A stretch of DNA of 64,000 nucleotides from contig JAWAHN010000001.1 in assembly GCA_038889235.1 (NCBI GenBank), positions 530,499 through 594,498 on the forward strand, read 5' to 3'. The DNA is from Candidatus Jordarchaeales archaeon. Its GTDB lineage: Archaea > Asgardarchaeota > Jordiarchaeia > Jordiarchaeales > Freyrarchaeaceae. A program made the translations under genes and the position numbers. This document shows positions 22,694-23,807 of this stretch, in pieces. Position 1 is the first letter of the stretch, and each line of letters begins with the position of its first letter. The notes under the pieces are model-generated. The model was not told the DNA's origin. It did no database searches and saw nothing but the letters and a program-made list of their open reading frames with translations.

Positions 22694-23729
22694 ATGACTA
22701 AGGTTGTAAAGCTTCACGGTTGAGCTTGTAAGCTCCCGCAGGCAGATTTGAAGAAGCTTCTAGAGAAGGCGGGGGTCACAACTCCGAGCAACATTCTAAG
22801 TGGGCCCGACGAGGATGCAGCCGTTATACGTGTCCGGGATGACATGGTGCTCGTGAAAACGATAGACTTCGTTACGCCGAGCGTCGACGAGGGATATGTT
22901 CAGGGGAAGATTGCAGCCGCTAACGCGACAAGCGACGTGTACAACACAGCCACGAGGCGGGCTGTGTGCATAAGCGAAGGGTGCAACCGAGATAGTTGGC
23001 TTCTTGGCGGTCTTAGGCGTGCCCACAGACATGCCTGTGGAAATAGCAGTAGATATTCTTCGGGGGATCAAAGACTACTTAAGTGAGGTCGGAGGGGCAT
23101 TGGTTGGCGGGCACACGATATTTAACCCGTGGCCGCTGTCTGGGGGCGAAGTTACTGCTATAGCCCATCCAAGTCAGATAGTCTACCAGAGAGGTGCTAG
23201 GGCCGGGGATGTGTTGGTTCTCACAAAGCCACTGGGGACCCAGCCGGCAATGGCTGTCTATAGAAGTGTGAAGGAGCCGGAGACGCGCGAACTAGTGCTA
23301 AGCGTGCTTTCAGAGAAAGAGGCGGAGGAATTAGTTAGGAAGGCGATAGGATTCATGACGCAGTCAAACAAACCTGTTGCTGAAGCTATGAGGGAGGTTA
23401 AGCCTAATGCTGCAACCGACGTAACAGGGTTTGGGCTTGTGGGACATGCTGGAAACATGGCTAGGGAGAGCGGGGTTGACGTGGAGATACAATTTTTACC
23501 AGTTATGAGGGGTGCTGTTCAAGTCTCAGAGCTCTTTGGCTACGGGTTAGAAAGAGGGGAAGCTGCGGAGACCTCTGGTGGAATCTTGGCGTCGCTGCCT
23601 AAGGAGAAAGTTGACGAGTTCCTGGGCGAGTTGAAAAAACGCGGAGTTACAGCTTACATCGTTGGTGAGATTAAGCGCGGCGAGGGGAAAGTTACTGTGA
23701 AGCGTGACGTCGAAATGATCGAGGTGTAG
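22694..23729 (+). CDS. selD: Selenophosphate synthetase with in-frame TGA and a frame disruption
   Basis: Makes selenophosphate from selenide and ATP. The product has the N-terminal active-site segment VKLHG-(TGA)-ACKLPQADL, then GPDEDAAVI, NATSDVY, GALVGGHTI, TKPLGTQPAM and TDVTGFGLVGHA, all family hallmarks. TGA 22721-22723 sits exactly where SelD enzymes have catalytic Cys or Sec. ATG 22694 is used; in-frame GTG 22673 is an alternative. Between SDVY (22940) and EIVGFLAVLGV (about 22990) the frame shifts by +1, with about 25 extra nucleotides around a perfect hairpin. Without that stretch the protein is about 336 residues, normal length. It is either recoded, spliced or a pseudogene. Confidence 0.8.
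22721..22723 (+). other. TGA at the Sec/Cys position of SelD
   Basis: The codon is followed by GCT TGT AAG CTC, giving G-U-A-C-K-L-P, the same context as the selenocysteine in methanococcal SelD. A random nonsense mutation exactly here is unlikely, so a selenocysteine codon, active or ancestral, is the simplest reading. Sec tRNA and SelB-type genes are not in this window. Confidence 0.6.
22944..22967 (+). repeat. Perfect 8-bp hairpin at the selD frame break
   Basis: ACACAGCC (22944-22951) and GGCTGTGT (22960-22967) form an 8-bp stem with an 8-nt loop exactly where the two reading frames of selD must be joined. It lies within the roughly 25-nt stretch that has no counterpart in the protein family. 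Confidence 0.6.
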
Positions 23730-23775
23730 ACTTAGGTGATGATGGAGGAAGGTAAAGCATGGTTACCCCTTCCTT

Positions 23776-23807
23776 CCAGAACCCCCACAGCAGTGGGGCT
23801 TAACAGG
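23776..23807 (+). promoter_or_regulatory. Hairpin after selD, possible SECIS element
   Basis: About 50 nt after the selD stop, CCCCAC (23783-23788) pairs with GTGGGG (23793-23798) around an AGCA loop, and the 5' side carries GAAC just before the stem. Archaeal SECIS elements have GAA on the 5' side of a GC stem and an A on the 3' side. The 3' side here reads CTTAA and the lower stem is weak, so the match is partial; it could equally be a simple terminator hairpin. Confidence 0.22.

Follow-up and report, generated by a model that had tools for sequence, protein, structure and literature searches.

A selenocysteine-type selD gene of Jordarchaeia interrupted by a predicted tRNA-type intron

Introduction

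The closest described counterpart of the locus analysed here is the pre-mRNA intron of crenarchaeal cbf5 (Watanabe 2002; Yokobori 2009, PMC2738675). This short intron (16–44 nt) lies inside an Asp codon, in a bulge-helix-bulge (BHB)-like motif that is often relaxed and that is cut between bulge nucleotides 2 and 3, and it is associated with heteromeric EndA, the enzyme type linked to mRNA introns (PMC2738675). Unconfirmed predicted introns in other archaeal genes exist (PMC2738675). By a 2020 account, crenarchaeal cbf5 had the only such intron known in an archaeal mRNA, apart from that report's own case, the 5′ UTR intron of Haloferax HVO_1309 (PMC7714728).

Selenocysteine (Sec) in Jordarchaeia is already published. 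It was inferred in 2021, when the selenoproteins listed were HdrA, Prx and MvhD, without SelD (PMC9723677). In 2024, Sec was reported for Atabeyarchaeia and for a Freyarchaeia genome, and in these two groups 92–95 % of tRNA genes contain introns (PMC11291895). An earlier note on this DNA, which suggested a Sec-decoding archaeon outside the known Sec groups, was therefore not quite right on that point. A further 2024 survey has clades besides Loki-, Thor- and Sifarchaeia, the Jordarchaeia clade included, appearing without Sec (PMC11227280). In both Asgard archaea and methanogens, Sec-containing SelD (SPS) has UGA at HG-U-(A/S)CK, a eukaryotic-type SECIS-like element in the 3′ UTR and the archaeal/eukaryotic SelB-SepSecS-PSTK route, and the Jordarchaeia gene shares these features. 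However, it is interrupted, whereas all the others inspected are continuous. The novelty is this interruption, which has the features of an intron.

The selD gene

The window is the whole stretch of 64 000 nt that was analysed. It belongs to a genome (G000) of 2.14 Mb in 8 contigs, 95 % complete, from the class Jordarchaeia of the Asgard archaea. selD lies on the plus strand of the window, with TGA at 22721–22723 in the frame V-K-L-H-G-(TGA)-A-C-K-L-P-Q, and translation could alternatively start from a GTG in the same frame (22673). ORF prediction splits the gene into two pieces, 22748–23086 and 23004–23729, with a break at 22943 and a shifted frame that resumes at 22974. The gene is read as follows.

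22694..22942, plus strand: selD exon 1, from ATG 22694 to GAC GTG TAC (..SDVY)
22721..22723, plus strand: UGA, predicted Sec residue at the catalytic Sec/Cys site of SelD (HG-U-ACK); TGA in 7/7 readable class members, Sec machinery in the genome
22943..22973, plus strand: predicted BHB-type intron of 31 nt, relaxed HBh′ form, AACACAGCCACGAGGCGGGCTGTGTGCATAA; same place in 7/7 genomes, 30–34 nt, 7/13 pairs changed on both sides
22974..23729, plus strand: selD exon 2, A-K-G-A-T-E-I-V.. to stop TAG; predicted spliced protein gap-free across the junction against human SEPHS1
23735..23783, plus strand: eSECIS-like element; [A/G]UGA_GA core after selD in 7/7 genomes, helix sequences differ

The predicted spliced protein matches NF010705 over 1–334 with 350.2 bits (cut-off 291) and TIGR00476 with 254 bits. 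The match is full length and includes HGUACK, with Sec and then K. The TGA that the earlier note saw at the SelD active-site codon was confirmed, and the closest relatives, checked for TGT or TGC at this codon, have TGA at the same residue instead in all seven Jordarchaeia genomes with a complete selD. The eighth (G001) was left out of the selD counts, as the gene leaves the contig end and the codon is not readable.

In the phylum search, SelD with TGA was the rule in most other Asgard archaea too, so that chance can hardly account for this codon. Cys (TGT) occupies the Sec position in SelD of Hecatella, Archaeoglobi JdFR-42 and haloarchaea; both Halorussus and a Haladaptatus plasmid carry a Cys-type SelD (L101, L107). 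A Sec-type (TGA) SelD in the record Euryarchaeota archaeon NC_groundwater_1681 (locus L092, 175–1179) resembles the Cys-type SelD of Hecatella (L091), and this organism is possibly a Sec-decoding archaeon beyond the usual groups. A further Sec-type SelD was found in a record labelled Bathyarchaeota Bin_245 (locus L104, 3001–3993), which might reflect misbinning or a mislabelled Asgard genome.

Selenocysteine machinery and other selenoproteins

In the genome, the gene for SelB (307.5 bits, cut-off 242) immediately precedes that for SepSecS (497.9 bits, cut-off 225), and a full-length PSTK homologue scores 192.2 bits, under the NCBIfam curated cut-off of 290.5. A tRNA-Sec gene with anticodon UCA is present at C1:336000. 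Removal of its three introns (in the D-loop, anticodon-loop and T-loop) leaves a 90-nt 9/4 fold in which the acceptor has 9 bp, the T stem has 4 bp and the D stem is long. Because of these introns, the unspliced gene scores 27.8 bits against RF01852, below the cut-off of 47, and the call is based on the spliced fold and the exons across species. In G002, G003 and G007, the exons are conserved and the introns differ. The anticodon splice site is fixed by G007, from the second genus, which is without the anticodon intron. Multiple introns in one tRNA, at non-canonical sites, are also known from the same or related organisms (Atabeyarchaeia and Freyarchaeia, PMC11291895) and from Thermoproteales.

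The eSECIS-like element (AUGA-helix-AA loop-helix-GA) lies about 10 nt past the selD stop, and gave no match to the Rfam SECIS families. In G007, the terminal stop of selD is TGA, although an upstream TGA in the same mRNA, which carries the SECIS-like element, would be read as Sec.

At least two further selenoproteins accompany SelD in the genome. These are MvhD/FlpD homologues, each with a pair of in-frame TGA codons at positions where homologues have Cys, and each gene comes after an HdrA-like gene (L202, about 1386–1754; L203, about 1261–1608). The internal stop reported in an FlpD fusion of G001 was merely the terminal stop.

Thus, the genome search proposed in the earlier note, for tRNA-Sec, SelB, PSTK and SepSecS as well as for other selenoproteins containing TGA, found each of these, PSTK as a homologue, and a Sec-decoding archaeon is supported. 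Given a conserved TGA at the Sec/Cys position, SelB, SepSecS, the PSTK homologue and tRNA-Sec(UCA) together in one genome, the other selenoproteins and the eSECIS-like element 3′ of the gene, the selD TGA is selenocysteine as far as the sequence can say.

The insert in selD

The earlier note also described downstream frame damage. The frame shift is real, at 22943–22973, but this is a conserved insert of BHB type and not damage, because it lies at exactly the same place in every readable member and both of its flanks are coding. In the seven full-length Jordarchaeia selD genes, it sits between GA(C/T)-GTG-TA(C/T) (..DVY) and GC(A/C/G)-A.. (A-K/I-G), and is 31 nt long in G000, 34 nt in G002 and 30 nt in G003–G007. 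As it is out of frame in G000 and G002, and ends with an in-frame TAA in the other five, it cannot be plainly translated. An internal TAA was found in none of the other Asgard selD genes among the matches listed in the phylum search. In the EF-like gene L016, a TAA reported as internal proved to be the stop at the end of the gene.

The flanks evolve as protein-coding sequence on both sides. Between genomes, dN is about 0.02–0.12 and dS about 0.2–2.4 in both exons, where measurable, and both are thus under strong purifying selection. All SelD residues outside the insert are intact.

The RNA is predicted to fold around the insert as follows.

22937..22940, plus strand: 5′ strand (GUGU, exon 1) of the central 4-bp helix, pairing with intron GCAU 22968–22971; paired in 7/7
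22941..22943, plus strand: 5′ bulge, three nucleotides A-C/A, cut predicted at 22942/22943 from BHB geometry
22944..22967, plus strand: intron-internal hairpin, ACACAGCC / loop / GGCUGUGU, 8–9 bp, sequence replaced between genera and pairing kept
22972..22974, plus strand: 3′ bulge, three nucleotides A-A/G, cut predicted at 22973/22974

The motif has one 3-nt bulge on each of the opposite strands and a 4-bp helix in which exon GUGU pairs with intron GCAU or GCAC, two of the four pairs being G-U in most genomes. The outer exon-exon helix of the strict hBHBh′ form is absent, and the motif is of the relaxed HBh′ form. BHB motifs are cut between the second and third bulge nucleotides (PMC2738675), and the cuts placed by this rule coincide precisely with the exon borders; no other junctions restore SDVYA(K/I)G. 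Splicing there would join GTGTAC to GCGAAGGG, and the restored SDVYAKGATEIV aligns gap-free with SDLYAMGVTECD of human SEPHS1 (SDLYAMG).

Pairing is conserved although sequence is not. One genus has the hairpin arms ACACAGCC/GGCUGUGU; the second has AUGUAAAUC/GAUUUACAU, a wholly different stem that is still paired. Across seven intron sequences, which form two clusters, 96.7 % of 91 cells are paired and both sides have changed in 16, compared with a shuffled mean of 6.7; sliding the register by one base reduces pairing to 15–21 %. The Val codon that contributes to the central helix is GTG in 7/7 intron-bearing selD genes, versus 1/23 codons counted at the same place in intronless Asgard selD. 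A scan of the window for BHB motifs yielded about 45 candidates, most of which appeared to be chance matches and operon junctions, and its slack setting missed selD itself.

Splicing endonuclease

Two EndA-type subunits are encoded in the genome. The best alignment of the catalytic subunit is with the (alpha-beta)2 EndA of Aeropyrum pernix (3P1Z), with no gaps through the region taken as the specificity loop, which is linked to cleavage of relaxed motifs. The second subunit apparently lacks the catalytic His and probably has a structural role. EndA of the (alpha-beta)2 type has broad specificity (PMC6379350), and the two-subunit enzyme of this genome, resembling the crenarchaeal one, is predicted to cut relaxed motifs.

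Predicted introns in cbf5 of Asgard archaea

When cbf5 was searched for in Jordarchaeia, the match was split in seven of the eight genomes, and the eighth had an in-frame stop at the same place. The gene is interrupted inside the catalytic-Asp codon in 8/8 (the loci include G000:C1:835691-836673, locus L117, and those of G001–G007). This is the exact site of the proven crenarchaeal cbf5 intron and, unlike selD, the Jordarchaeia cbf5 intron has the strict hBHBh′ form. A split cbf5 at this site was also read in Asgard families f3 and f23, and f26 is similar, though partly read; an intron at the catalytic Asp codon is listed also for G008, G166 and G176–G178, the last three partly read. Family f23 is less certain, as it includes one contaminated genome and one with two cbf5 copies. 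Among the matches listed, cbf5 is mostly continuous in Loki-, Thor- and Heimdall-like genomes, these group names being a tentative reading. The pattern points to a BHB intron, predicted to be spliced, in the cbf5 gene of each of the eight Jordarchaeia and in that of some further Asgard families.

The cbf5 genes of several Asgard genomes that are split at model position about 174 (G015, G036, G074, G076 and G165; L176–L180 and L184–L188) do not contain BHB introns. Their insertions have an open frame of about 1.5 kb and are probably inteins.

Alternative explanations

With a stop and a frame break, the window alone would suggest a decaying pseudogene, the relic of a Sec trait that the earlier note had offered as one possibility. 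This is hardly credible for a gene that has the same insert at the same codon in seven genomes of two genera, dN/dS far under 1 in both exons and the remaining SelD residues intact, in a genome with Sec machinery and other selenoproteins; a conserved gene under such purifying selection is not a relic. An assembly or sequencing error is less credible still. The genomes appear to be metagenome assemblies, but seven assemblies share the insert in sequences that are independent yet compensated, and selD of G007 is on a 450-kb contig.

Two further explanations leave the insert in the mRNA. It could be translated or passed by recoding, through UAA readthrough combined with programmed frameshifting, in an organism that already recodes UGA and in whose class the insert of five genomes is 30 nt long and holds a single in-frame TAA. 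However, no single rule fits inserts that are out of frame in G000 (31 nt) and G002 (34 nt) and in frame in the others, what is conserved is base pairing rather than codons, and ten inserted residues would split the SDVYAMG motif. We consider this very improbable. Slightly less so, but still quite unlikely, is translational bypass, in which ribosomes hop over a hairpin and no RNA is spliced, as in phage T4 gene 60 and the yeast mitochondrial byp elements. A hairpin of 22–27 nt within a gap of 30–34 nt is indeed like these elements. Bypass requires matching take-off and landing codons, but here the take-off codon is TAC or TAT and the last gap triplet is TAA or CAA. It also leaves unexplained that exon GTGT pairs with intron GCAT, that the two 3-nt bulges fall exactly at the junctions, and that cbf5 has an intron at the site of proven crenarchaeal splicing.

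Proposed expression of selD

It is thus very probable that this is a functional, Sec-containing selD whose coding sequence holds an archaeal intron of the tRNA-splicing type, and that the transcript would be spliced to yield one SelD. The transcript would fold into a BHB-like motif around 22937–22974, and heteromeric EndA would cut it at 22942/22943 and 22973/22974. The exons would then be ligated, presumably by the RNA ligase RtcB, and the mature mRNA would give one SelD of 334 aa. UGA 22721–22723 would be read as Sec by SelB and Sec-tRNA-Sec(UCA) under the direction of the eSECIS-like element. We infer that both splicing and Sec insertion take place in the cell.

Since an unspliced mRNA cannot make SelD, Sec synthesis would need the tRNA-splicing enzymes twice, for tRNA-Sec with its three introns and for the selD mRNA. 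The gene would hence have two stop-like signals, neither of them a stop, a sense UGA and an intronic UAA, both of which have to be overcome to make selenophosphate. That splicing regulates the use of selenium is speculation.

The selD and crenarchaeal cbf5 introns are similar in size, in the often relaxed motif, in the position of the cuts and in the type of EndA. They differ in that the selD intron is in Asgardarchaeota, is in phase 0 between codons, lies between the Sec UGA codon and its SECIS-like element, and has been predicted from sequence. Compared with the multi-intron tRNA genes, where such elements are known in tRNAs, the same kind of element is found here in mRNAs. The HVO_1309 intron is likewise of the EndA-processed mRNA type, but is in the 5′ UTR, whereas that of selD is in the coding sequence.

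Implications

Neither a selD intron nor an Asgard cbf5 intron was found in the literature searched, which did not extend to subscription journals and preprints, and priority is not guaranteed. On this basis, selD would join cbf5 as the second protein-coding gene of Archaea in which a BHB intron is known inside the coding sequence. Gene finders call such intron-split genes broken, and the intron may have led both to the placement of Jordarchaeia among clades apparently without Sec in one survey (PMC11227280) and to the omission of SelD from the list in another study (PMC9723677).

A second gene, in Asgard archaea and encoding a selenoprotein, together with an Asgard cbf5 intron at the identical site, changes the picture of a single archaeal case. 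Whether tRNA-splicing enzymes process mRNAs more widely in archaea, and have done so for longer, can now be tested. It is conceivable, though doubtful at present, that the cbf5 intron descends from an ancestor older than the split of Asgard archaea and Crenarchaeota, and that Jordarchaeia added at least one more, in selD, where splicing would control the supply of selenophosphate and with it that of all selenoproteins. If this were true, mRNA splicing would be among the inherited traits of Asgard archaea, which are the closest relatives of eukaryotes.
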